Below, one piece after another: positions 2,058 to 56,626 of a DNA stretch of 57,536 nucleotides. This DNA is from Stutzerimonas stutzeri. GTDB lineage: Bacteria > Pseudomonadota > Gammaproteobacteria > Pseudomonadales > Pseudomonadaceae. The translations under genes and the position numbers were made by a program. The stretch covers positions 1-57,536 of the forward strand of contig NZ_JANGEY010000016.1 of the NCBI RefSeq assembly GCF_024451105.1, written 5' to 3'. Numbering within the stretch: position 1 is the first letter of the stretch; each line of letters starts with the position of its first letter. A model generated the notes under the pieces. That model was not told where the DNA came from. It did no database searches and was given only the letters and a program-made list of their open reading frames with translations.

Positions 2058-3224
2058 TCACCAGCGCCCATAGCCATACGGCGAGGGGATCTCGATCTCC
2101 TGATCCAGCAGCTCGTCCGCCGCCGCAACCAGGGGATCCAGCCAGTCTGCCTTGGCCCGCCCCCAGGCTAGGAACGCACGTTGCTCCTCGGTCAGCTCCC
2201 CACCCAGCTGGGCCTGCTGCTCGAAAGCGTTCAGGTAATCGCGCAGTTGCTGCGCCCGCCGCCAGGCCTGCGCATCGTCCTCCACCTGCTGGAGTCGCTC
2301 CCGCTCCGCATCCTGAAGTGCCTTCCGCGCCAGGGCTTGCTCGCGTCTGCGCCGCAGTTCAACCTCTTCAATAGCCCGCTGCTCGCGGGCCAGCAGAATC
2401 CCAACCGCCCGGCGCGCCATCAGCACAATGAACGCATTGAGCTGAGCCTCGACGGGCAGCTCCGGCGTGTCGACCACCTTGCCGCTGTAGCCCTGATCGG
2501 CGATCACATGCAGCCGTCCGGAGGGTGTGTATTGCCACTGGGGGAGGTAGACCCACTGGCCACGCGCCTGCTTGGCGACCTCTTCAGGGCTGGGGACATA
2601 GCGGGAACGGCGCGTCGGCTCGAAAAAGCTGAGCGTAGAGGAAATGCCGAGAATCTCGACCTGGACGGAGCGCTCGCCCAGCGTGACCCGGTAGCCGCGT
2701 TGCTCCAGGGCCTTGAGCAACGCGTCGGCCACCCGCAATGCCCTGGGCAGCAACGCGGTGGACACCTTGAGATCCAGGGCCTGCTCTGTCGGCAGCGGGA
2801 TACCCCGCTGATCGTGGGCGGGCTTCTTCAGGGCATCACGGGTCTTCACCACCAGGGGGTGCGGGCGGCGCAAGCGTTCCGCCACCCGGACATGATGAGC
2901 CGGATCCTCCTCATAGCTGAGGATGGCCTGTAGACGCGGATCGACCGGCTCGCTGGGTGGCGAACTACAGGGCACGGCGGCAACACGCTTGGGCTTGAGC
3001 AGCGCACCAGGCGAGCCGGTGTACTCGCGCAGCTCCGGCCGGGCAGGCAGCCGCTTGCCGGCCTTCAGCTTGGCCCAGTAGCCGCGACCTGGTGTCGGAA
3101 TCTGGAGGCGGACACAGAGTTTCTGCAGCCCCACATCCGAGAGGCCATACCGGGGTGCGACTTCGCGCAAGGGGGCCGACCATACTTCCTCCAGCAGCCG
3201 GGCGCGGTCATAGTATTCAGCCAT
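2058..3224 (-). CDS. Conserved protein of unknown function with N-terminal HTH-like region and coiled coil
   Basis: The 388-residue product begins with a region (YYDRARLLEEVWSAPL, then VAPRYGLSDVGLQKLC and PGRGYWAK) that I recognise as the recurrent N-terminus of a family of unnamed proteins in proteobacterial accessory DNA; its helices look like a resolvase- or sigma-type helix-turn-helix. Residues from about 275 to 345 are rich in Arg, Glu, Gln and Leu and should form a coiled coil. I chose ATG at 3224 because GGAGG lies 10 bases upstream; a GTG at 3230 is in frame but too close to that site. DNA binding is inference and no enzymatic motif is visible. Confidence 0.7.
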   Translation of the reverse strand: MAEYYDRARLLEEVWSAPLREVAPRYGLSDVGLQKLCVRLQIPTPGRGYWAKLKAGKRLPARPELREYTGSPGALLKPKRVAAVPCSSPPSEPVDPRLQAILSYEEDPAHHVRVAERLRRPHPLVVKTRDALKKPAHDQRGIPLPTEQALDLKVSTALLPRALRVADALLKALEQRGYRVTLGERSVQVEILGISSTLSFFEPTRRSRYVPSPEEVAKQARGQWVYLPQWQYTPSGRLHVIADQGYSGKVVDTPELPVEAQLNAFIVLMARRAVGILLAREQRAIEEVELRRRREQALARKALQDAERERLQQVEDDAQAWRRAQQLRDYLNAFEQQAQLGGELTEEQRAFLAWGRAKADWLDPLVAAADELLDQEIEIPSPYGYGRW

Positions 3225-3320
3225 CGTCACGTGCCTCCGGGTTACGGATGGAACGATGATGGGCCAAGCAGCGTGGCCCGCCCACGCAATTGGTCGCTCA
3301 GGGCTGGCTTGACCCGAAGG

Positions 3321-3614
3321 CTACGACTCCCCCCAGTAGTCGTCGCGGGCTACCCGGCCAAAGGCCTCGTCGTCGGGCTGTTCATCATCGAATAGCCTTT
3401 GGATCCGCCGCACCTGGCGAAGATGGGCAAGTGCCAGAAAGAAACAGGATTCGCAGAGACAGACGCGGTAGCGCTCGCCGTCATGCTGCGAGCTGTACCC
3501 CCACAACGCTTGCAGCGTGCCGAACTGCTGGCCGTAGCCGGGTACACAAGCGCTGCTGCCACACACCTCACAGCGGATCTCGTCCTTGACCTGAGTCGAG
3601 TCATCCATCGCCAT
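3321..3614 (-). CDS. Small zinc-ribbon-like protein of unknown function
   Basis: This 97-residue protein has two Cys pairs, CEVCG near the N-terminus and CLCESC about 40 residues later, spaced as in a treble-clef or zinc-ribbon fold, followed by a helical, acidic C-terminus. The frame opens further upstream, but ATG at 3614 (MAMDD) has an AGAGGAG site directly in front and is the better start. It lies in a row of four minus-strand small genes (4444 to 3321) that looks like accessory cargo. Similar short double-CxxC proteins occur in Pseudomonas accessory DNA; none that I recall has a known role. Confidence 0.6.
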   Translation of the reverse strand: MAMDDSTQVKDEIRCEVCGSSACVPGYGQQFGTLQALWGYSSQHDGERYRVCLCESCFFLALAHLRQVRRIQRLFDDEQPDDEAFGRVARDDYWGES

Positions 3615-44707: not shown

Positions 44708-44751
44708 GCATCCGTAGCTCAGCTGGATAGAGTACTGCCCTCCGAAGGCAG
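44708..44751 (+). pseudogene. Truncated tRNA-Arg(CCG), 5' half only
   Basis: The acceptor 5' strand (gcatccg), D-arm (gctcagctggatagag) and anticodon arm (ctgcc ctccgaa ggcag) match the intact tRNA at 44811, but after 44751 the variable loop, T-arm and 3' acceptor are absent. It differs from the intact gene in the acceptor and anticodon stems, so it is not a recent partial copy. It may be a scar of site-specific integration or deletion. Confidence 0.85.
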
Positions 44752-44810
44752 TGATCATCGGCTTGAGAAGCTCGGAAGCTAGTGGTCAAATAGGTCTCTG
44801 CAAAAAATAC

Positions 44811-44887
44811 GCACCTGTAGCTCAGCTGGATAGAGTATTGCCCTCCGAAGGCAAGGGTCGTGGGTTCGAATCCCGCCAGGTGCGCCA
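44811..44887 (+). tRNA. tRNA-Arg (anticodon CCG)
   Basis: A complete cloverleaf of 77 bases: acceptor gcacctg/caggtgc, D-arm, anticodon stem ttgcc/ggcaa with loop ctccgaa (anticodon CCG, reading CGG), T-loop ggttcgaatc, discriminator G and encoded CCA at 44885-44887. It shares the promoter region of the truncated copy and borders the accessory region to the right. Confidence 0.97.
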
Positions 44888-45497: not shown

Positions 45498-46859
45498 ATG
45501 AAAACCCAAGATTTCCCTCCACTCCCCGCCTCCGAAGAGCCTTTGATGTTTGCAGATTTGTTTGCAGGCTGTGGCGGCCTATCCCTCGGGCTGTCGCTTT
45601 CGGGTATGAACGGCGTGTTTGCCATCGAACGCGACAAGATGGCTTTCTCGACCCTATCCGCCAACCTGCTTGAAGGGCGGAAAGTGCCGGTGAACCAGTT
45701 TTCATGGCCCTCGTGGCTGGAGAAGAAGGCCTGGGCAATCGACGAGGTTCTCGAGCAACACCCGATTGAGCTCACCCAGCTAAAGGGCAAAATCCATGTC
45801 CTGGCAGGAGGCCCACCCTGCCAAGGCTTCAGCTTTGCAGGAAAGCGGAATGAGTCCGACCCTCGCAACAAGCTGTTCGAGAAGTACGTCGAAATGGTTC
45901 AGGCTATCCGGCCATCGGCCCTTGTCCTGGAAAATGTGCCCGGGATGAAAGTGGCGCACGCCGCAAAGACATGGAAGCAACTGGGTATCTCGGTCAAGCC
46001 CCAGTCCTACTACGACAAGCTGGTAGAGAGTCTGGACAGGATCGGGTACCAAGTCCTAGGCAAGATCGTCGACTCCTCTCGCTTCGGGGTACCTCAGAAG
46101 CGCCCACGCCTGATAGTAATCGGACTCAGAAAGGACCTGGCCCAGCACCTCGAAGGTGGGGTAGCCCGAGCCTTTGAGGTGCTAGAGGAAGCCCGACTTA
46201 AGCAGCTGCATGAACTCGGTCTTCCCGAGGCCATCCATGCCGAGGATGCCATCTCGGACATGGAGATAGGTCACGCGGGCACGAGGCCCTGCAATGACCC
46301 TGACTCTCCGAAGAAATTCGAAGAGATTGCCTATGCCGGCCCTCGAACGGTGTTCCAAAGGCTCATGCATCAAGGCTGTGATGGCACCATCGATAGCTTG
46401 CGCCTCGCTAGGCACAAGCCAGAAATCAAGGCCAGGTTCCAGGCGATCATCGACGATCCTAACTGTGCCAAGGGCGTACGGATGAACGCCGAGATACGCC
46501 AAGCATATGGACTCAAGAAGCACCGCATCTATCCAATGCAAGCTAGCGCTCCGGCTCCCACTATCACGACACTGCCGGACGATGTCCTCCACTACAAGGA
46601 GCCCAGGATACTGACCGTACGGGAGTCTGCTCGGCTGCAGTCATTCCCGGACTGGTTCCAGTTCCGTGGAAAATTCACCACTGGCGGGAGCCAGCGGACC
46701 AAAGAGTGCCCGCGCTACACACAAGTGGGCAACGCGGTACCACCCTATTTGGCACGCGCCGTCGGCATGGCTATCAAGGCAATGCTGGATGAAGCCGTGA
46801 TGCTCGCCAGCCAAAAGGCAGAGCGTGAACTAGAAGAAAAAATGATAGCCATCGCTTGA
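45498..46859 (+). CDS. DNA (cytosine-5) methyltransferase
   Basis: The 453-residue enzyme transfers a methyl group to C5 of cytosine in DNA. Motif I is DLFAGCGGLSLG (from Asp20), motif IV GGPPCQGFSFAGK (catalytic Cys108), motif VI ENVPG, motif VIII QKRPRLIVIG, motif IX RESARLQSFPDWF and motif X GNAVPPYLARAVG. The target-recognition region lies about residues 230-360 and is not one I recognise. TAGGAG precedes ATG 45498. It heads an operon with three Dpt-like genes and vsr, so it probably makes the self-mark for that system. Confidence 0.95.
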   Translation: MKTQDFPPLPASEEPLMFADLFAGCGGLSLGLSLSGMNGVFAIERDKMAFSTLSANLLEGRKVPVNQFSWPSWLEKKAWAIDEVLEQHPIELTQLKGKIHVLAGGPPCQGFSFAGKRNESDPRNKLFEKYVEMVQAIRPSALVLENVPGMKVAHAAKTWKQLGISVKPQSYYDKLVESLDRIGYQVLGKIVDSSRFGVPQKRPRLIVIGLRKDLAQHLEGGVARAFEVLEEARLKQLHELGLPEAIHAEDAISDMEIGHAGTRPCNDPDSPKKFEEIAYAGPRTVFQRLMHQGCDGTIDSLRLARHKPEIKARFQAIIDDPNCAKGVRMNAEIRQAYGLKKHRIYPMQASAPAPTITTLPDDVLHYKEPRILTVRESARLQSFPDWFQFRGKFTTGGSQRTKECPRYTQVGNAVPPYLARAVGMAIKAMLDEAVMLASQKAERELEEKMIAIA

Positions 46860-46879
46860 ATACATAGGAGTCGAGGGGA

Positions 46880-49027
46880 ATGGATAGCTCCCAACTGGAA
46901 GGGGCACAATACCCTGCCGCGCTTGTCGACTGGGCCGGCCATCACTCAGGGGGGGTAAAACGGCTACTGGATAAGAACAGCGGTCAGCCGAACAAGCAGT
47001 TGCTGCGGACAAACCTCTTGTCCCGTCTCCAGGCCTGGGCTAACAGGCTTCCCACCGAGGCCTCAGCTGTCCCTAGGATTGTCCTGCTTGTGGGTGGTCC
47101 CGGGAATGGGAAAACCGAGGCAATCGAGTGCACCATCCGTTGGCTCGACGAAAGCCTCGGCTGCGATGGCCGGTTGGTCGACGAGCTCTCGAAAGCCTTC
47201 CATCCCTCAACAGGTTCGGCAGTCCCCCGGCTGGCAAGGGTCGATGCCGGCAGTCTTGCCAGGCTGGACAGCCGCCTGAGCCTCGACATCGTCCAGGACG
47301 CCTCTGCCACTGCCGGACATGAGGGAAGCACTGCCCCGGTCCTCCTTATAGATGAGCTTGCCAGGCTACTGGATGGGCCCCCTACCCAGGCCTATCTCTG
47401 CTGTGTCAATCGTGGTGTACTCGATGACGCTCTGATCCATGCAATAGACAACAACCTGGAACAAGCACGTACTCTTCTCGAAGCCGTTACCCGGGCTGTA
47501 AGCCTGGCGTACGACGCCCCCTCGTGCTGGCCCCTCGATGGCTTCCCATCAATTGCAGTCTGGCCAATGGATGCCGAGTCGCTTTTGGTGAAGCCGGACG
47601 ACGAGCCCGTAGCCCCTGCCGAGATACTTCTGGGCCAGGCCACCGCTTCCGAGATGTGGCCAGTAAAAGGGGGATGCCCAGCAGGTGACAAATGCCCCTT
47701 TTGTTTCAGCCAGGCCATCCTCGCACGCGATGAAAATAGGACATCCTTGCTAAGGATACTGCGCTGGTACGAGCTAGCCAGTGGCAAGCGTTGGAGTTTC
47801 CGGGACCTATTCTCTCTCACGTCGTACTTGCTGGCAGGCCATCATCCTGTAGTGCACGACCCGGCGGGAACTCCACACCAGTCTACTCCCTGCCAATGGG
47901 CGGCGAACCTTGTCGACCTCGACCAAAAGGCTCTAACGGCGAAGAGGCATGGCAGGCAATCGCTAACTGCCATTTTCCACCTGGCGACTTCGGGCTACCA
48001 ACATGCGCTCTTCCATCGCTGGGACAGGAACGCAGCCACCTCACTCCGCCGCGACCTCAGGGATCTTGGCCTCGAGAAGGAACTCGACATGGAGGAAGGG
48101 CGGACCCTGATGGGGCTCGTCTATTTCCTTTCGGAACGCAAAAGCCACTACCTCCCAGCGACCATCGCCCCCCTGCTGGAGGGCCTAGTCGAAACCCTGG
48201 ACCCGGTCTTCGCGAGCCCAGACAGTGAAGTAGCAGTGAGCAGTCGAAACACAATAGTCCTCGGCGACCTGGACATGCGTTTCAGTCGCTCCCTGGCAGG
48301 CGGCATTGAGTTCATTCGCAAGTATCAGGTGCTATCACCAAACGAGCTCGATTTACTCCGGCGCCTATCCGCGTCAGACGCCATGCTTTCCTTGCCGAGT
48401 ATACGGCGCAAGAGGCCAGTGGCAGCCAGCCGAGTCCAGCACGTCCTCCGTGATTTCGCATGCCGCCTAGTACGAAGGAGCATATGCACCCGGACGGCCA
48501 TCGTGGCGGACGCTCCAATCCTGAAGGCATTCCAGCAGGTCGTCGAGGACAGCGACAAGCACCATCACCTCTTCAAGGTAGCAAGGCAAGTAAAGGAACT
48601 GCTGAACACTGGCAAGGAGTTCGAGGTGTCGCTAACCACTACCTTCGGTCAACCACTCCCCCCACGACAACGCCAAGCAACACTGCTCGTCCAACAGAGC
48701 CCGGTCCGGATGTCTCCCCTGAACATCAAGGGGCGCCCCCACCCACCGATTTGCTATCTCCATGTCGGCCAAGGGCAATCAGCCCAACCAGTCCCACTGA
48801 CCTATGACCTTTTCAAGGCCGTGAAGGAACTGGAAAAGGGGCTTTCACCTGCATCCCTTCCACGCACGGTCGTTGCACTACTAGACACGACAAAGGCCCG
48901 GCTATCTGGCCCAATTGTCCGCGACCATGAACTACTCGATGATGCCCGGATCCGCGTTGGCGCAGATGGCACGGTAGTGAGCCGCTCGTGGAATGGTTTC
49001 GTTGAAAGCCGGGAGGACAACGTATGA
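46880..49027 (+). CDS. DptF-like P-loop ATPase of a restriction module
   Basis: The 715-residue protein has Walker A GGPGNGKTE (Lys78), Walker B VLLIDELARLL (Asp158-Glu159) and a sensor-like strand CCVNRGVLDDAL, the pattern I associate with DptF of phosphorothioation-dependent restriction. A Cys cluster, C266-x5-C272-x2-C275 (CPAGDKCPFC), follows, then SGKRWSFRDLFSL. No membrane segments are present. It begins 20 bases after the methyltransferase and its stop overlaps the next start (ATGA). The DptF assignment rests on motifs and gene order, not on a search. Confidence 0.65.
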   Translation: MDSSQLEGAQYPAALVDWAGHHSGGVKRLLDKNSGQPNKQLLRTNLLSRLQAWANRLPTEASAVPRIVLLVGGPGNGKTEAIECTIRWLDESLGCDGRLVDELSKAFHPSTGSAVPRLARVDAGSLARLDSRLSLDIVQDASATAGHEGSTAPVLLIDELARLLDGPPTQAYLCCVNRGVLDDALIHAIDNNLEQARTLLEAVTRAVSLAYDAPSCWPLDGFPSIAVWPMDAESLLVKPDDEPVAPAEILLGQATASEMWPVKGGCPAGDKCPFCFSQAILARDENRTSLLRILRWYELASGKRWSFRDLFSLTSYLLAGHHPVVHDPAGTPHQSTPCQWAANLVDLDQKALTAKRHGRQSLTAIFHLATSGYQHALFHRWDRNAATSLRRDLRDLGLEKELDMEEGRTLMGLVYFLSERKSHYLPATIAPLLEGLVETLDPVFASPDSEVAVSSRNTIVLGDLDMRFSRSLAGGIEFIRKYQVLSPNELDLLRRLSASDAMLSLPSIRRKRPVAASRVQHVLRDFACRLVRRSICTRTAIVADAPILKAFQQVVEDSDKHHHLFKVARQVKELLNTGKEFEVSLTTTFGQPLPPRQRQATLLVQQSPVRMSPLNIKGRPHPPICYLHVGQGQSAQPVPLTYDLFKAVKELEKGLSPASLPRTVVALLDTTKARLSGPIVRDHELLDDARIRVGADGTVVSRSWNGFVESREDNV

Positions 49028-50565
49028 GCCTTGCGGATTTCAAGCAGACCCCATGGAGCAAGTCACATCCGAGCTACCAGAAGTCAGCCCTGGCAATCAG
49101 CCCTGCCCCTGAGTATGCAAGCTCAGAAGTCCTGCTTGCCTCGCTCTACCGAACCATAGGCTTCGCATCAGCCAGCGAGGGCAGTGTGCCGCAGGCCGGG
49201 CGAGACCTGGACAGGCGCATCCAGAAACTCCGCGAGAAACGCCAATCCCCACCAACGGGAGCGGTCGTCGGCGTAGAGGCCTGGAATACTGTGCTCCATG
49301 GGATTCTGGAGAGCCCAAAGCTTCCCAACCAGTCGTCCAAGCGGTTCCTACAGGTAACCCCCATCGTACCCGGGGCGACACTCTTCTCGGGGTCTGCCCG
49401 ACTGAGCAGCAACTCCTGGCCTGCCGGCAGCTTGATTCGCCGCATGGTCTGCCTGGGATCGAAGGATCGGGAGTCTGCGCTACGACTCTGGCAAAGTCTC
49501 TTCGCTGCATTGAGCGTCGATGACGAGGACGATGTCTTCGCACGCTGGCTCGACCAAGAGACATCGGCGTGGAACCCAGAAGCAAGCAACTGGGCACTTT
49601 CGCCAATACCTGAGGATGAGATGGCAATACTGGAAGCGTCGGATTTTCAGGGAATCTCGTTCCTCCCAGCCCGGCGATTTACCAAAGACCTGCAGGCTAT
49701 CATGCATGCCAAGGGTTCCATGACCCGCCGGCAGTGGACCAGCCTGCTCGAGGCGCTGCTTCGCCTGGCAGCTGTCTCCCACGTGACATGGTTGTGCGAC
49801 GTCCACTCCAGGACATGGGGCTGCCTGTGGGCCGCACTCATGGATGGCATTGCTCCTTCTAGCGAACTGGACGCAAGACGTGCGCTGTTCCCGGAAGCCC
49901 CCCAGTACATGATGTACGGAGGGAAAGCCCTCCAAGGCATCAAGGACAAGGTGTCCAGCTACCTAAACGCTCGGTTGGGGATCAATGCCCTTCTCTGGTC
50001 TCTGGACCAGATAGGGGCACCCTACTCTGGCAACCTCTCCTCGAGCGCCGGAATTGCTGCACTTTGCCAGCATATCCGCCAGCATAAGGCCGAGCTGACT
50101 CGCCTAGGCACGCTTGAGATGATTGCCGATGTGCGCGAGCAAGAAGCCCGTGCGCTGCTTTGCAAGAAAGGCATAGGCTCCAACCTGCTGGAGTTTGCGC
50201 GGCACGTCCTTGGGCAACGTCAGGCTGCCGTCCCATTGCTGAGGGGGTACGATCAGGGATACATACTGAAGAAGAAAGGCAGCAGCCCATCCAGCCCATG
50301 GATAGTCTCCCTTGGTCCCGTCGCCGTGCTTGCCTTGGTGCACTGCGCCCTCGCAGGAATGGGCGGCCCCCGCTCGGTCCACCGGCTTGGACAACACCTC
50401 GAGGCCTATGGCATGGCCGTGGACAAGCATGACATCGGCAGGAACGACCTGGGCCACCAGCTACGGATGCTCGGCCTGGTGCTTGATAGCCCCGATGCTG
50501 AGAGCGGCATGCTGCTACTCCCCCCCTTTCCCCATAAACCAAGCCAGCCAGGGACCGGAAGATGA
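49024..50565 (+). CDS. Unrecognised protein in the DptG position
   Basis: I do not recognise this 513-residue protein. It is soluble-looking, with a mixed alpha/beta N-terminal half (Trp/Ser-rich strands, SARLSSNSWPAGSLIRRMV) and a mostly helical C-terminal half. The last 80 residues (VLALVHCALAGMGGPRSVHRLGQHLEAYG, then GRNDLGHQLRMLGLVLDSPD) look like a winged helix. It overlaps both neighbours by ATGA, so the three proteins are made together and probably form a complex. By position it corresponds to DptG, but sequence similarity is not evident to me. Confidence 0.6.
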   Translation: MSLADFKQTPWSKSHPSYQKSALAISPAPEYASSEVLLASLYRTIGFASASEGSVPQAGRDLDRRIQKLREKRQSPPTGAVVGVEAWNTVLHGILESPKLPNQSSKRFLQVTPIVPGATLFSGSARLSSNSWPAGSLIRRMVCLGSKDRESALRLWQSLFAALSVDDEDDVFARWLDQETSAWNPEASNWALSPIPEDEMAILEASDFQGISFLPARRFTKDLQAIMHAKGSMTRRQWTSLLEALLRLAAVSHVTWLCDVHSRTWGCLWAALMDGIAPSSELDARRALFPEAPQYMMYGGKALQGIKDKVSSYLNARLGINALLWSLDQIGAPYSGNLSSSAGIAALCQHIRQHKAELTRLGTLEMIADVREQEARALLCKKGIGSNLLEFARHVLGQRQAAVPLLRGYDQGYILKKKGSSPSSPWIVSLGPVAVLALVHCALAGMGGPRSVHRLGQHLEAYGMAVDKHDIGRNDLGHQLRMLGLVLDSPDAESGMLLLPPFPHKPSQPGTGR

Positions 50566-53500
50566 ATAGACTTGCACACTGGCTTGCCGCCACTGTCCAC
50601 GAGAAGGTCCGGGGCTCGACACAAGGGTTCGGAGGTACCAACCTCGAGTACCGACTGATATTCCGTGGTCCTCCCCTCGAGCTCCTCGAGCCGACCTACG
50701 ATGAACTGACTCGGGATGGAGGGATCAAGGTGCCGGGTGGGGCGGACGGAGGGCTGGTGACCCTGCCGGTACTGCTCCAGTACCCGGCCGGCCAGTTGCA
50801 GGGGCCCAGGCCCCGCATTGGAGCATCCGGAAAGTGCGACAACGACCACTTGCTGGATGTGCGCAACAGCCCTAAACCTAGCTTTATTGCTCTGGTCCCG
50901 CCAGATCTGCACAACAATCGATCGATCGAAACCACGGCCGACGAGTTCGGGTTGGGGGCAACTACCAGCACAGACCATGCATCCTTCGAACAATGGTGGG
51001 AGGATGGCTTTGTCCAACAAGCAGTCAACGAGGCATTGCTCGCCGCCGGCATAACGGACGCCCAGAGGGATGACGCCAGGGGTCTGGTTCGTGCAGCCGC
51101 GGCTTCGGTCGACGAGGTGGATCCAGACAAGCGCGGTCATCGCGCTGCCTGGCGCCTGCTCTCCCGTATCTACTCGATAGCAGGCGCGAATCAAGAGCTG
51201 CCTGCAGGGACAGCACTATCACTTGCATGCGGCCTCCCCCCGATGAAGGAGGGAGGAGTTTCCGCCAAAATACAGCTTTCGGTTCTAGGAAAAATCGCCG
51301 ACGAGCTTGCAGACGGTTTCAAGACTGGCATCGAGCGTCTGGCGCAAGGCGTCCAGCAAGGGGTTGCGCAAGCGCTGCACGAACTGCTTTCTCATCTCCA
51401 GTCGAATTGCGACGTACTTACGGCCTTTGAGCGTGCCACAGCAGCTTTCTACCTGCCCTGCGCCGATATTGAACTGGCGCCCCCTCCATCCTGGTGGACA
51501 TCGCTCACCACCGAGCAATGGACGGAGCTATTTGCCGACGAGCCCGACGAGGTCGTGGGAGAGCTAACGATCCGGTGCACCAATAGTGTGCTCCCCATGG
51601 GAAAGGGCTTGCCGGCCGTGGTGCGAGACAAAGTCGAGCTATTGATCTCCACAAGCGAGGAGAGCCAACCAAAGGAGTTCCTGCTAACAGGAGGCTCTCA
51701 CGGCAAGGTGCCGCTGGCAGTGCCAGCGGGCTCCAACGGAACTACCAGCCACGTTGACCTGTTCACCTCCCCCCACAAAGCGCCAATTAGCTACAAGGTC
51801 TCCGCGGACGGCTGCAAGCCTGCAAGCGTCCGGGTCATCTCCCTCGCGAGCTGGAAGCCCGGGATCCTTGTTACCTGCAGGCTCGCGACAAAGCTCTCGC
51901 CACCGAGGAAGCCCCGCAAGAACTCTGTGGCGATGGACTGGGAGACGTCCCTGTCGCTGCCTGGCTCCGGTCGTTATGAACTCCGGCTCCACCTTGCTCC
52001 GGGGGCATGCATTAGGAAGGTAGAAGGTTTGCTGGACGATGCCACTGAGTTCGAGGAGCAGCGGGAGACAATCGAACCACGGCAGGTTGGTGGGGACGAA
52101 TACCTGATAGAGATCGAGGCCGATGGCAAGTACCAGCTGGACATCACCTTTACTCCAGCCGGCGAGCAAGTCCCGAAGGCCTGCCGGGTCTACCTGGCCT
52201 GCGAGGAGGCAAAGGAGGAAGGCTGCAGGAGCGAGTTCGAGCGACTCATCAAGCTCAACCGGCGGCATCTCGAGAGGTTCGATACCAAGGCCGTTGTACA
52301 TCTCGACCGGAATGCACGCTCCTCCAGCCTGCAGTCATGGATGCTGGAGGATCAGAACGTATCCAACTCCTTCAGGCCATTGGTGATCGCGGACGACTAT
52401 GCGTCCCGCTGGGCCCCCCCTGACTGGGACGCCCCGCATGGCCCTGTACTCTCGAACGGGCGTTTCCTGCATGACCCCCGCCCTGAGGCCATGAGCTTCC
52501 AACCACCGAAGGGCTTCGTCGAGGCCAGGAAGGGTATCGCCCGGTACATACGAGGTAGTGACGACCAGTCGGGGCTGCTTGAGTCCGCCCCGCTTGGCGC
52601 CTGGCTATCCGAAGACCCGGAGTTCCGCTCCCTTGTCGAGGGCTACCTCGGTGCATTCATGTCATGGCTGGATGCCGATCCGGGTATCGCCTGCTGGATC
52701 GACACCATTGCCGTCTGCTCCCTGGAGCCTGATGGCCGTACCCTGGGAAGGATTCCTGACGCCATCATCCTTTCCCCCCTGCACCCATTGCGCCTCGCAT
52801 GGCACTGCTTCGCCCAGAAAGTGCTCCGTGACGAGGCCGAGGGCGAATCCCCGTGCCCGGCGGCAAGCATCCTCGATCCGGATTGCGTCCCCGACCTACT
52901 GACCATCTCGCTGCAGGCACCGGGAGGTGTGGACAAGGTCGACTTTCTTTCCGTCGAATGCAGCTCCGACTACTGGGCCGTGCTTTGGAACGGCTCCCGG
53001 CTGGGACAAATACCCGACCGCGCTCGCCGGGCCCCGTTCGACAGTAGCTTCGGGCTGGCAGTCGGAGGGATATCGAGCGGGTTCAGCCCCGCCCAGGTCT
53101 CGCGAGCACTCGACGACGTCACCGACCTCCTGGCAGCAAAGCCTATCGTCAGCCTGGTAGTGTCCAGCGCAGGTGGCACCACGGATGCATGCAACGAGGG
53201 GTTGGCCACCTGGTGCACCAAACGGTTCGGCAACGGGGACCAAGACACCCCGCGGCACGGTGTCGGGCCAAGGATTGTGGAGGTATTCGATACCAGGCAG
53301 GCTGGCCGGCCCGACCAGGCGACGATTGCCAACCTCTCCGAGGACACAGGTAACCATGTCCGCTGGTATGACAAGCAGCCAGCTGGATCCAAGCCCGATC
53401 TGGGCATCATTGCCCAACTCGATTCGGCCCAACCCGAGTCCAAGGAAGTCGGAATGCTCTCGCCGATGGGAGCCGGCGGACTGATCAGGCACCGCGTCAG

Positions 53501-56141
53501 GCGCCAACTCCAGGCCTCGTTCCTGAGTGAATCCCGGCAGGGCCTGCAGATGCCACCCTCCGGCGAACCGTTTGCCGACAAGGTTTCCGCATGCATGCTC
53601 ATGATGGAAAGGCTCCGGGACGGCAAGGTCGGCCTGCAGTTCTCCCCGAATGTCCATGCAGTGTCTAGCATGCTCGAGGAAAACAGCGCTGGGTTCGTCG
53701 CGGTCTCGTCGTCGGCGATCGACCCCGCCTGCTTCCTTGGTGGTTGGATACAAGGGACGTATCTATGGGACTACGACCTACCCTCGTACTCGCATCGCGC
53801 AGGCGACACCAGCGGCTACTACCTGTTGTCGCAGGTCAAGCAGGCCGATCGCGATGCGCTGCGGCGAGTCTTGAAGCCCCTGCCGGGGTGCGAGGATCTG
53901 GACGATAATCAGGTTGAGCAAATCCTCCTCGAGGTTGCGCGTAGGGGGATTCCTACGGTGCGCGGCCTCTCCGGGGACGACACGGGGGCAACGGGCGACC
54001 TTGGCCTGTTCCTCGCTGTCCGGCTCCTGCAGGACCAGTTCCGTGTGACAGGCAATAAGGAAAGCCTGCTGCCGGTGCTTGCCGGATCGCCGGAGGACTC
54101 GACTATAGCAATAATCATCCCCGTCGACCCCTTCCGGGGTTACCTTTCCGACCTTGCCCGCTCCCTTGGCAAGGAGCGCAAGGATACGTCCCTGTCGCGT
54201 CCCGACCTACTGGTAGTGGGCGTACGCGCATACAGCGACAAGATCCACCTGCACCTTACGCCCATAGAGGTCAAGTGCAGGCAGGGAGTTGTCTTTGGTG
54301 CAGTCGAGTCAACCGAGGCGCTCTCCCAGGCTAAGGCCCTGTCGTCATTGCTTCGTGCCATCGAGGAGCGCGCAAGTAGTTCCCTGGCATGGCGCCTTGC
54401 CTTCCAGCACCTGCTGCTTTCAATGGTTGGCTTCGGCCTGCGTGTCTACAGCCAGCATCAGGCAGTAGGTGGGCATGCCGGCCGCTGGGCTAGCTATCAC
54501 GAGCGTATCGCCGCAGCCATACTCAGCCCAACCCCGCCGATCAGCATCGATGAGAAGGGAAGGCTAATCGTGGTGGATGCGTCGCCCCAGAGCAGCCCCC
54601 ATGATCGCGATGGCGACAAGTATACGGAAACCATTGTCATTTCCAGCCGGGATGCAGGTCGTATAATCGTAGGGGATGACACACAGTCCTTCTATGATGG
54701 CGTGCGTGCTAAGGTCGACGACTGGGGGCTGCTACCCTCCCAAGCGAGTGCGGTCGGCACCCCACCCATGCAGGTCGAAACCACTCCCTCGGATGAGGCT
54801 CAGGCGGGCGAATCCACAGTAGCTCCAGCAGGGGATATCCCCGAGGCATCTATCAGGTTGGTCGAGCAACCATCCACCAGAGTGGCGGAATCAGGGACAA
54901 TCCCAACCACCCCAACCACCCCAACCACCCCAACCACCCCAACCACCCCAACCACCCCAACCACCCCAACCACCCCAACCACCCCAACCACCCCAACCAC
55001 CCCAACCGACGAGCCAGGGACCGGGATCGTCATGTCCGTTGGCAAGACTGTCGATGGTTTCGAGCCCCGATCACTCTGCCTGAACATATCCGACACCCGG
55101 CTCAACCAGTTGAACATTGGTGTCGTTGGCGACCTCGGGACAGGCAAGACCCAGTTCCTCAAGTCGTTGATCCTGCAAATATCTAGGGCCCGCAAAGCTA
55201 ACCGTGGGATCACGCCAAGGTTCCTGATCTTCGACTACAAGCGCGACTACAGCAGCCAGGACTTTGTCGAGGCCACAGGCGCCAGGGTGGTGAAACCCTA
55301 TCGCCTGCCCCTGAATCTCTTCGACACCACGGGGATGGGAGAGTCCTCCGCCCCGTGGCTGGACAGGTTCCGCTTCTTCGCCGACGTCCTGGACAAGGTG
55401 TATTCCGGCATCGGCCCTGTGCAGCGGGACAAGCTCAAGGGTGCAGTCCGCAGCGCCTACGAGGCGGCCAGCGCGCAAGGCCGCCAGCCAACGATCTACG
55501 ATATCCATGCCGAGTACCGAGAGCTACTCGCTGGGAAGTCGGACTCGCCGATGGCTATCATTGACGACCTCGTGGACATGGAGGTCTTCGCGCGCTCAGG
55601 GGAAACGAAGCCGTTCGACGACTTCCTCGATGGCGTCGTGGTGATATCCCTGGACTCCATGGGGCAGGACGACAGGAGCAAGAACATGCTCGTCGCCATC
55701 ATGCTGAACATGTTTTACGAGAACATGCTCCGCACGCCGAAGCGCCCGTTTCTTGGCACATCCCCGCAGCTACGCGCCATCGACTCTTACCTATTGGTAG
55801 ACGAGGCGGACAACATCATGCGCTATGAATTCGACGTGCTCCGCAAGTTGCTACTGCAGGGCCGCGAGTTCGGCACGGGCGTCATCCTTGCCTCGCAGTA
55901 TCTGCGGCACTTCAAGGCAGGGGCAACCGACTACCGCGAGCCGCTGCTGACCTGGTTCATCCACAAGGTACCGAACGCAACACCCGCTGAACTTGGAGTA
56001 CTTGGGTTCACTTCGGACCTGGCGGAGCTATCAGAGCGGGTGAAAACCCTTCCCAACCACCACTGCCTGTACAAGTCATTCGACGTAGCTGGGGAGGTCA
56101 TACGGGGACTACCTTTCTTCGAACTCACCAACCAAGGCTGA
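50562..56141 (+). CDS. DptH/HerA-like ATPase with candidate nuclease motif and PTT-repeat hinge
   Basis: This 1859-residue protein ends in a HerA/FtsK-type ATPase: Walker A GDLGTGKTQ (Lys1529), FLIFDYKRDYSSQDFVEATGA, PLNLFD, Walker B LLVDEADNIM (Asp1747-Glu1748) and a closing GVILASQYLRHF, which I associate with DptH. Upstream, Asp1215 (RPDLLVVG) and Glu1236-x-Lys1238 (IEVKCR) fit a PD-(D/E)XK nuclease core. Between them lies a (Pro-Thr-Thr)11 linker (1448-1480). The first 1100 residues are large, beta-rich and unrecognised. It overlaps the previous gene by ATGA. It is likely the effector that translocates on DNA and cuts it; this is inference. Confidence 0.7.
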   Translation: MNRLAHWLAATVHEKVRGSTQGFGGTNLEYRLIFRGPPLELLEPTYDELTRDGGIKVPGGADGGLVTLPVLLQYPAGQLQGPRPRIGASGKCDNDHLLDVRNSPKPSFIALVPPDLHNNRSIETTADEFGLGATTSTDHASFEQWWEDGFVQQAVNEALLAAGITDAQRDDARGLVRAAAASVDEVDPDKRGHRAAWRLLSRIYSIAGANQELPAGTALSLACGLPPMKEGGVSAKIQLSVLGKIADELADGFKTGIERLAQGVQQGVAQALHELLSHLQSNCDVLTAFERATAAFYLPCADIELAPPPSWWTSLTTEQWTELFADEPDEVVGELTIRCTNSVLPMGKGLPAVVRDKVELLISTSEESQPKEFLLTGGSHGKVPLAVPAGSNGTTSHVDLFTSPHKAPISYKVSADGCKPASVRVISLASWKPGILVTCRLATKLSPPRKPRKNSVAMDWETSLSLPGSGRYELRLHLAPGACIRKVEGLLDDATEFEEQRETIEPRQVGGDEYLIEIEADGKYQLDITFTPAGEQVPKACRVYLACEEAKEEGCRSEFERLIKLNRRHLERFDTKAVVHLDRNARSSSLQSWMLEDQNVSNSFRPLVIADDYASRWAPPDWDAPHGPVLSNGRFLHDPRPEAMSFQPPKGFVEARKGIARYIRGSDDQSGLLESAPLGAWLSEDPEFRSLVEGYLGAFMSWLDADPGIACWIDTIAVCSLEPDGRTLGRIPDAIILSPLHPLRLAWHCFAQKVLRDEAEGESPCPAASILDPDCVPDLLTISLQAPGGVDKVDFLSVECSSDYWAVLWNGSRLGQIPDRARRAPFDSSFGLAVGGISSGFSPAQVSRALDDVTDLLAAKPIVSLVVSSAGGTTDACNEGLATWCTKRFGNGDQDTPRHGVGPRIVEVFDTRQAGRPDQATIANLSEDTGNHVRWYDKQPAGSKPDLGIIAQLDSAQPESKEVGMLSPMGAGGLIRHRVRRQLQASFLSESRQGLQMPPSGEPFADKVSACMLMMERLRDGKVGLQFSPNVHAVSSMLEENSAGFVAVSSSAIDPACFLGGWIQGTYLWDYDLPSYSHRAGDTSGYYLLSQVKQADRDALRRVLKPLPGCEDLDDNQVEQILLEVARRGIPTVRGLSGDDTGATGDLGLFLAVRLLQDQFRVTGNKESLLPVLAGSPEDSTIAIIIPVDPFRGYLSDLARSLGKERKDTSLSRPDLLVVGVRAYSDKIHLHLTPIEVKCRQGVVFGAVESTEALSQAKALSSLLRAIEERASSSLAWRLAFQHLLLSMVGFGLRVYSQHQAVGGHAGRWASYHERIAAAILSPTPPISIDEKGRLIVVDASPQSSPHDRDGDKYTETIVISSRDAGRIIVGDDTQSFYDGVRAKVDDWGLLPSQASAVGTPPMQVETTPSDEAQAGESTVAPAGDIPEASIRLVEQPSTRVAESGTIPTTPTTPTTPTTPTTPTTPTTPTTPTTPTTPTTPTDEPGTGIVMSVGKTVDGFEPRSLCLNISDTRLNQLNIGVVGDLGTGKTQFLKSLILQISRARKANRGITPRFLIFDYKRDYSSQDFVEATGARVVKPYRLPLNLFDTTGMGESSAPWLDRFRFFADVLDKVYSGIGPVQRDKLKGAVRSAYEAASAQGRQPTIYDIHAEYRELLAGKSDSPMAIIDDLVDMEVFARSGETKPFDDFLDGVVVISLDSMGQDDRSKNMLVAIMLNMFYENMLRTPKRPFLGTSPQLRAIDSYLLVDEADNIMRYEFDVLRKLLLQGREFGTGVILASQYLRHFKAGATDYREPLLTWFIHKVPNATPAELGVLGFTSDLAELSERVKTLPNHHCLYKSFDVAGEVIRGLPFFELTNQG
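54902..55007 (+). repeat. Perfect 9-bp tandem repeat coding the PTT hinge
   Basis: The unit cccaaccac occurs 11 times without a single change (54902-55000), plus seven bases of a twelfth. Nine bases equal three codons, so gain or loss of units changes linker length without breaking the frame. Perfect identity, including third positions, points to recent expansion. Confidence 0.97.
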
Positions 56142-56185
56142 CCGAGGCCCGGCCTGCGAATGCAGGCCGGGCAAGGACGCTCCTA

Positions 56186-56626
56186 ATGACAGACTTCCTT
56201 TCTCCCGCAGAGCGCTCGGACAGGATGTCACGCATTCGGGGCAAGGATACGAAACCGGAGATTGCGCTACGCAAGGCGCTTCACGGGCTTGGGCTTCGCT
56301 ATCGACTTCATGGTGCAGGGCTCCCCGGCAAACCTGACCTGGTGTTTCCGAGATATAGGACCGTCGTGTTCGTGCATGGATGCTTCTGGCATCGACACAG
56401 TGGTTGCAATATCGCCACCACGCCGAAGAGCAATACACAATTCTGGCTGGAAAAATTCGAAAAGAACGTAGAGCGCGACGCCCGCGTTATCACCCAGCTA
56501 CAAATGATGGGGTGGAAGGTTATAACCGTGTGGGAGTGCGAACTAGCATCGTTTACGAAATCACAGGAAACTGCAAAGTTAGTTCAAGCCATGATAATAG
56601 GAAACAATCAAACTGGTGCCCAGTAG
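56186..56626 (+). CDS. vsr: Very short patch repair endonuclease Vsr
   Basis: Vsr, 146 residues, nicks DNA next to T-G mismatches left by deamination of 5-methylcytosine. The family signature is complete: RSDRMSRIRGKDTKPE, LPGKPDLVF with Asp51, FVHGCFWHRH with Phe62, His64, Trp68 and His69, PKSNTQFWLEKFEKNVERD, and GWKVITVWECEL. These residue numbers match the E. coli enzyme. It follows the 1859-residue gene by 44 bases in the same operon, supporting 5-methylcytosine as the modification made by this system. Confidence 0.96.
   Translation: MTDFLSPAERSDRMSRIRGKDTKPEIALRKALHGLGLRYRLHGAGLPGKPDLVFPRYRTVVFVHGCFWHRHSGCNIATTPKSNTQFWLEKFEKNVERDARVITQLQMMGWKVITVWECELASFTKSQETAKLVQAMIIGNNQTGAQ

Follow-up and report, generated by a model that had tools for sequence, protein, structure and literature searches.

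A 57,536-nt stretch of DNA from Stutzerimonas stutzeri (contig NZ_JANGEY010000016.1; host assembly GCF_024451105.1, 99.78% complete), referred to here as the window, carries five plus-strand genes that probably encode a restriction-modification system in which a DndFGH-type translocating nuclease is held off self DNA by 5-methylcytosine. DndFGH, or DptFGH, is the restriction module of the Dnd phosphorothioate systems. A first-pass annotation of this DNA had listed, in this order, a C5 methyltransferase (MTase), a P-loop protein, an unknown protein, a HerA protein and Vsr; all five genes are intact and stand in the order claimed. Gene 1 (45498–46859, 453 residues) encodes the predicted C5-cytosine DNA MTase. 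Gene 2 (46880–49027, 715 residues) encodes a DptF/DndF-like P-loop protein, here F; gene 3 (49024–50565) a 513-residue protein at the DptG position, here G; and gene 4 (50562–56141, 1859 residues) a DptH/DndH-like protein, here H. Gene 5 (56186–56626, 146 residues) encodes the predicted mismatch endonuclease Vsr. Reading the DNA confirmed both ATGA overlaps, F/G at 49024 and G/H at 50562.

The pairing of a Dnd-type restriction machine with cytosine methylation, as proposed in that annotation, is partly supported, by the detectable relation of F to DptF and of H to DptH, by a C5 MTase in every relative found, and by the absence of dndB–E nearby; the part of the proposal that treated G as DptG is suggestive. 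The arrangement exceeds chance, as F accompanied by a C5 MTase, and by G and H on contigs long enough to show them, recurs in 15 loci including the window. Between the window and its nearest relative (locus L005), the ratios of nonsynonymous to synonymous substitution rates (dN/dS) were 0.05, 0.09, 0.14 and 0.10 for the MTase, F, G and H, and these low values indicate that the four genes are under selection.

Relation of H, F and G to the Dpt proteins

The C-terminal 350 residues of H were the only part of F, G and H that the profile libraries recognised. PADLOC matched residues 1505–1855 to DndH (6.9e-69), and the HerA/FtsK-type translocase domain (residues 1485–1855; 55014–56126) matched the solved DptH structure 7es4 at 4.1e-47. 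For the remaining comparisons, family profiles were aligned by hhalign against a canonical set of seven DptF, six DptG and five DptH proteins taken from canonical loci. Locus L034 was excluded from the DptG set, in which its protein is split, and from the DptH set, as was L035, whose region gave no DptH match; on the side of the window's relatives, L018 was left out of the full-length H alignment (H is split) and L038 out of the G and H alignments (the contig ends). In this comparison the HerA domain of H aligned with that of DptH at 1.8e-45, with 34% identity.

Beyond the HerA domain, three stretches of H (N-terminal, a middle one bearing SPxHPL, and the nuclease) aligned with DptH in the same order. 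In the whole-protein alignment, the nuclease stretch reached an E-value of 0.0019, and the N-terminal and SPxHPL stretches, at 0.27 and 0.41, were non-significant on their own. When matching segments were compared, none of 200 column shuffles reached the score of any of the three. The putative PD-(D/E)XK nuclease region (residues ~1195–1300, RPDLLVVG ... TPIEVK; 54144–54461) scored 44.8 against DptH, compared with a shuffle maximum of 25.9, and its PD and EVK residues were present in 13/13 aligned H proteins. The N-terminal parts matched DptH as stretches, without resolution into SNF2, β-sandwich, recognition and inactive methylase domains. Judged from these alignments, H appears DptH-like along its length and not just at the HerA domain.

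A perfect 9-bp tandem repeat (CCCAACCAC, 11.8 copies, 54902–55007) lies in frame between the nuclease and HerA domains and encodes a Thr-Thr-Pro linker; in the relatives this linker is variable and made of other low-complexity sequences. The Pseudoalteromonas H (L018, 7517–12890) is split into two annotated genes of 164 and 1623 residues, with the MTase downstream.

In a tree of HerA domains, the H proteins of the MTase-coupled loci formed one clade (98/94) beside three proteobacterial DptH proteins; the DptH of two Firmicutes and that of L046 lay far away. A HerA protein from a Vibrio plasmid (L020) joined with lower support (90/88). Eight of the 18 inner branches of this tree were unresolved, and long branches were flagged. 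According to Rakesh et al. (PMC10853773), in the part that concerns DndH, this protein acquired its HerA domain from several sources, so the tree should not be taken as the history of the whole machine. The Vibrio gene (L020, 8213–11149), whose HerA domain groups with proteobacterial DptH, stands beside mobI and tra genes.

F had no library match above cut-off and none in PADLOC at E ≤ 1, and gave weak P-loop matches in Pfam and NCBIfam; in pairwise comparison neither F nor G matched DptF or DptG. By hhalign, F aligned with DptF in two ordered stretches, one at the P-loop (E 6e-3, probability 6%) and one at the C terminus (E 7e-4, 26%). In matching segments the probabilities were 56% and 59%, respectively, and 0/200 column shuffles reached either; with one more DptF added, none of 60 shuffles was as good as the whole-protein alignment. 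The motifs of F are invariant in 14/14 sequences, namely Walker A GGPGNGKT, Asn177 in the Walker-B place and Asp140 at the end of strand 2. In their description of DndF, Rakesh et al. (PMC10853773) report a Walker-B asparagine, an acidic residue on strand 2 and, in some members, a Zn-binding insert in the lid, and the cysteine cluster of F (C266, C272, C275) would fit such an insert. Searched against the PDB, the F profile gave weak matches at best (E 0.017), and in an AlphaFold2 model from a shallow alignment of eight sequences (mean pLDDT 47.5) a DndF-type helical lid and the C-terminal α+β domain could not be read. Taken together, the profile alignments and motifs indicate that F is detectably related to DptF. 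The first-pass annotation had allowed that the ATPases might have no relation to Dpt families; as far as F and H are concerned, a relation was found.

G matched no Pfam or NCBIfam family and nothing in PADLOC at E ≤ 1. Its length of 513 residues and gene position nearly fit DndG (450–500 residues, three winged helices), and its C-terminal 55 columns aligned with the C-terminal winged helix of DptG. Because shuffled columns equalled this match in 17/400 trials, we treat G as a candidate only, suggestive of a DptG with a possible C-terminal winged helix. With one more DptG added, 6/300 and 8/300 shuffles were as good in two cuts, and 11/60 for the whole proteins. The AlphaFold2 model of G (seven sequences, mean pLDDT 51.2) gave no match in the PDB by Foldseek at E ≤ 0.001, a result that carries no weight given the poor model.

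The outer genes of the cluster were identified by curated models. The product of gene 1 passed the NCBIfam dcm cut-off (TIGR00675, 159.9 versus 100.65 bits) and matched Pfam PF00145 at 9.8e-55; PCQ and ENV motifs were present in 12/12 aligned MTases of this type, the window's included. The product of gene 5 passed the NCBIfam cut-off for Vsr (TIGR00632, 156.7 versus 97.85 bits) and matched the E. coli Vsr structure 1cw0 at 1.1e-35. The two are accordingly predicted to be a C5-cytosine MTase and Vsr.

Relatives of the module

The module was found in 15 distinct loci, 14 of which have F, G and H; in L038 the contig ends after F. All relatives were retrieved with G, F or H as queries, and the MTase was never used as a query. 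Besides the window, five come from Pseudomonas sp. ZH-FAD, P. aeruginosa PA7, Pseudomonas sp. BN102, a Massilia metagenome-assembled genome (MAG) and Pseudoduganella lurida (L005–L009). Plasmid-borne copies occur in Shinella oryzae, Sinorhizobium fredii, Rhizobium leguminosarum and Pseudoalteromonas (L015–L018), and further ones on two IMG/VR contigs (L027, L038) and in three genomes (L028–L030). Loci L022–L026, L037 and L047–L049 were repeats of loci already counted. The identity of F to that of the window ranged from 93% down to ~30%.

The module is rare. It was present in 1/397 other genomes of an even phylum sample (window genome excluded), in 3/397 other genomes of a family sample, two of them PA7 and BN102 again, and in 1/368 genomes of a class sample. 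The orders of the two distant finds held no other genome with the module among 77 and 53 others, and E. coli genomes searched with the window DNA and with the HerA-region DNA of L018 gave no match. Canonical DptG (TIGR03236) was found in 1/398 genomes of a phylum sample.

Of the 14 loci whose sequence continues beyond H, 10 have Vsr and four (L005, L018, L029 and L030) lack it. Vsr is thus an optional accessory and no defining part of the module; the first-pass annotation, which had counted it into the system, was right about its presence in the window. Its role would be that of a repair accessory, as taken from its family. In L029, a 443-residue minus-strand gene after H (2228–3556) gave PADLOC matches to LmuA, PDC-M48B and RTasMBL (best 2.4e-11) and no Pfam match at 0.01. 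In two Rhizobiaceae plasmids, a protein of ~582–586 residues is encoded after vsr (L015, 13991–15751; L016, 14987–16735), and the L016 copy has no Pfam or PADLOC match. A GHKL ATPase gene of the minus strand (HATPase_c_3, HATPase_c) directly follows H in L030 (870–3242), where others have vsr.

Absence of Dnd modification genes

No Dnd modification genes were seen in the first-pass annotation, and the searches agreed, with no DndB–E in the whole window and no DndC match in the whole host genome. With Aliivibrio wodanis queries (tblastn, E ≤ 1e-6), DndB, DndC, DndD and DndE were found in 0/15 loci within fetched stretches of 12 to 57 kb; because the DndE query overlooked a dndE annotated in the canonical locus L041, this test rests on DndB, DndC and DndD. 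DndC was not found above cut-off in 14 further genomes or records, which gave one match below it, and DndD matches in six genomes were likewise all below cut-off. A DndC candidate in L010 (130 bits versus a cut-off of 290.4) was rejected and taken, by inspection only, as another PP-loop protein. In the host genome, DndD and DndA matches fell below the curated cut-offs. The possibility raised beforehand, that the cluster serves a dnd cluster elsewhere in the host genome, thus found no support in the genome-wide search for DndC, DndD and DndA, which did not extend to DndB or DndE.

Coupling to a C5 methyltransferase

A C5 MTase adjoins F-G-H (F alone in the truncated L038) in 15/15 loci, upstream in 14 and downstream in the Pseudoalteromonas locus L018. 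Eight canonical dptFGH stretches differed from this pattern, with C5 MTase in 0/8, Vsr in 0/8 and dnd genes in 5/8, the absences holding for the 13 to 40 kb scanned. In one of these canonical loci (L042), a gene is annotated as a phosphorothioation-associated putative methyltransferase; it gave no C5 match.

The same association was seen from collections searched gene by gene. Among 72,556 plasmid records, the MTase (E ≤ 1e-50), F (E ≤ 0.01) and G (E ≤ 1e-5) matched the same four records. H had 14 matches in this collection and was covered over at least 80% of its length in those four; nine other matches covered ~18–19% of H, at the HerA domain, and two of these are annotated dptH. Among 283 Pseudomonadaceae genomes, the MTase matched at E ≤ 1e-60 in four, three of them with F-G-H and the fourth (G408) without. 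Hence, among the sequences sampled, F-G-H is strictly tied to a C5 MTase, and the MTase is closely but not strictly tied to F-G-H. Distance matrices of the MTase and of F, G or H agreed over 11 loci (10 for H; L009, L029, L030 and L038 omitted), with r of 0.93–0.98 and a Mantel p of 2e-4, as expected if the four genes travel together.

The type of MTase can change. In the Massilia locus (L008, 4550–7861), two C5 MTases precede F, one of the window type and one of a different type (MT_b, 578 residues). In Pseudoduganella (L009, 5793–7876) MT_b is whole, and the 385 bases between MT_b and F hold a C-terminal MTase remnant of ~51 residues, whose best match is the window-type MTase (2e-15, 53%). 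An origin of this remnant from the neighbouring MT_b was ruled out, as it has no match to MT_b. Loci L029 and L030 carry distant C5 MTases in the same place. Some C5 MTase is therefore always present though its type changes, while Vsr can go. This is what would be expected if F-G-H were harmful without C5 methylation, although it is no proof of it.

Interpretation and alternative explanations

We propose that F, G and H would assemble into a single complex, which would load on DNA and be driven along it by the HerA motor. On host DNA, 5-methylcytosine placed by the adjacent MTase would block or stall the ATPase, as phosphorothioate does for DndFGH, and unmethylated incoming DNA would let the machine run and nick or cut. 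Vsr, where present, would repair the T:G mismatches that arise from deamination of 5-methylcytosine and would stand outside the cutting machine. The nuclease and HerA translocase motifs of H are intact. DndFGH is described as a 2:2:1 complex and a translocation-coupled nickase; phosphorothioate represses its ATPase, and loss of the mark leads to damage to the host (PMC11662687). SspFGH is described as damaging unmodified DNA and as toxic without its mark (PMC8092258). That 5-methylcytosine may serve as the self-mark, as the first-pass annotation had it, is suggested by the adjacency of the genes, their co-inheritance and the replacement of the MTase in L009.

Several observations weigh against this interpretation. 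HHalign's own whole-protein probabilities for F against DptF are low (26% and 6%), and the relation of G to DptG is only suggestive. The record CP002245, from the strain of the S. fredii plasmid (L016), matches 65% of H and has no F, G or MTase match. The G408 MTase (L051), 44% identical to that of the window, precedes a 774-residue frame (a GHKL-type ATPase by eye) in place of F-G-H; at that distance, an MTase of this type can therefore occur outside the module. Agreeing trees also arise when neighbours are co-inherited on mobile islands. Finally, L009, L029 and L030 carry MTases far removed from that of the window; should their sites differ, the proposal would not explain how the same kind of F-G-H reads them.

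We also put forward, tentatively, a wider reading. DndFGH-type machines may read no fixed mark, and this lineage may have been re-licensed from backbone sulfur to base methylation, with an MTase that can be exchanged for an unrelated one (L008 to L009, L029, L030). The self-signal would then be an interchangeable part, detected because it obstructs translocation and not as a particular chemical group at a particular site.

A rather unlikely alternative is that F-G-H is a standalone nuclease that senses invaders, and that the MTase and Vsr form a separate, solitary methylation module on the same islands and are no off-switch for it. C5 MTases paired with Vsr and without F-G-H are well known from Dcm-Vsr. 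Methylase and VSR genes are also reported without F-G-H in MORC operons (PMC2292703), and Rakesh et al. (PMC10853773) describe DndABCDE as commonly decoupled from DndFGH, for which they propose a standalone system sensing other signals. Against such independence, a C5 MTase is adjacent in 15/15 loci, including those in which F is ~30% identical and in two positions relative to F-G-H. It also sits poorly with L009, where another C5 MTase stands beside the decayed window-type one, and with the canonical dptFGH stretches, which have a C5 MTase in 0/8.

The module could instead be a member or sister of SspFGH and not of DndFGH, in which case its relatives may use phosphorothioate too; we regard this as improbable. 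SspF carries a Walker A motif, and the C terminus of SspH resembles FtsK; the reported occurrences of sspBCD-sspFGH, mostly in Rhizobiales, Pseudomonas, Escherichia and Burkholderia, are partly like the hosts found here (PMC8092258). The same description gives SspFGH no homology to DndFGH, yet the HerA domains of H and DptH share 34% identity. Around DndC-like proteins, four plasmid regions (among 60 of 2467 records listed) held no ssp genes. DUF4007, which we take to be SspB, had no match in four module genomes, though the controls were equally blank and the search is hence weak. A closer kinship with SspFGH is what most endangers the family name used here, but it would leave the coupling to C5 methylation as it is.

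That F-G-H is modification-dependent (type IV-like), attacking foreign-modified DNA while the MTase protects by occupying or otherwise marking sites, is very hard to credit: the MTases vary between loci, so that a single protective site is not evident, but little else favours it, Pfam finds no modified-base reading domain in F, G or H at E ≤ 1, and the precedents DndFGH and SspFGH are described as attacking unmodified DNA (PMC11662687, PMC8092258).

Genomic setting

From its sequence, the cluster appears to lie on a genomic island; the window ends with the contig, and the right border falls outside it. On the 5′ side stands an intact tRNA-Arg(CCG) gene (44811–44887, plus strand, ARAGORN), preceded by a second, partial and diverged tRNA-like copy that starts at ~44709, as integrating elements leave. 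The whole tRNA region (44709–44887) is a likely attachment site of the island. Two minus-strand genes upstream resemble gabT and gabD by inspection, and a minus-strand frame near the contig end (57123–57446) resembles, also by inspection, a fragment of a tyrosine recombinase. Between H and vsr lies an 11-bp perfect inverted repeat with a 4-base loop (56147–56172), read from the sequence. This GC-rich predicted hairpin may separate vsr expression from the operon.

Comparison with known systems

Among the nearest known systems is DndFGH/DptFGH, which has three genes in the same order; its H protein has a PD-(D/E)XK nuclease and, behind it, a HerA translocase at the C terminus, and its F protein has a P-loop, a Walker-B asparagine and an acidic residue at strand 2. 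F and H also share ordered aligned stretches with their counterparts. The module differs in lacking DndB–E matches nearby and in having a C5 MTase beside it at every locus found, and furthermore in that F and G have no pairwise match, G is only suggestively related, and the HerA domains of H form a clade of their own (98/94).

Compared by description (PMC8092258), SspFGH likewise has three genes, with a Walker A motif in the first and an FtsK/HerA-like C terminus in the third, and partly similar hosts, but it is coupled to sspBCD phosphorothioation and is reported without homology to DndFGH. In CxC-DndE systems, cytosine methylation has been proposed where phosphorothioation would be expected (PMC10853773). 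There, however, the methylase joins a DndD/CxC-DndE core and an HKD-helicase nuclease, whereas here it joins the F-G-H restriction module, with no DndD or DndE match nearby. Dcm-Vsr and the MORC/Vsr operons (PMC2292703) share the C5 MTase and Vsr, and L030 has a GHKL ATPase gene after H; the described MORC/Vsr operons have helicases and GHKL ATPases and no DndH-type translocase.

The first-pass annotation knew of no named system with such a composition, and among the papers that our literature searches listed, none was seen to describe a DndFGH-like module paired with a C5 MTase. The nearest published statement is that CxC-DndE systems use cytosine methylases instead of phosphorothioation (PMC10853773). 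In the parts of that study that deal with DndFGH, the complex is called standalone, without an inbuilt modification module, and DndH-like proteins having only the C-terminal ATPase were set aside in the screen.

How DndFGH tells self from non-self is unsettled, as Rakesh et al. see common decoupling from phosphorothioation and experiments in Salmonella show dependence on it. The conserved lineage described here ties an F-G-H-like machine to a one-gene C5 MTase, which makes the question of self-recognition easy to test: a single gene adds or removes the mark, and standard bisulfite or enzymatic sequencing reads it. If the cluster works as it looks, the same machine can run on a different self-mark, a methyl group on cytosine and not sulfur. 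If that is true, restriction motors and self-marks would be exchangeable as modules across chemistries.

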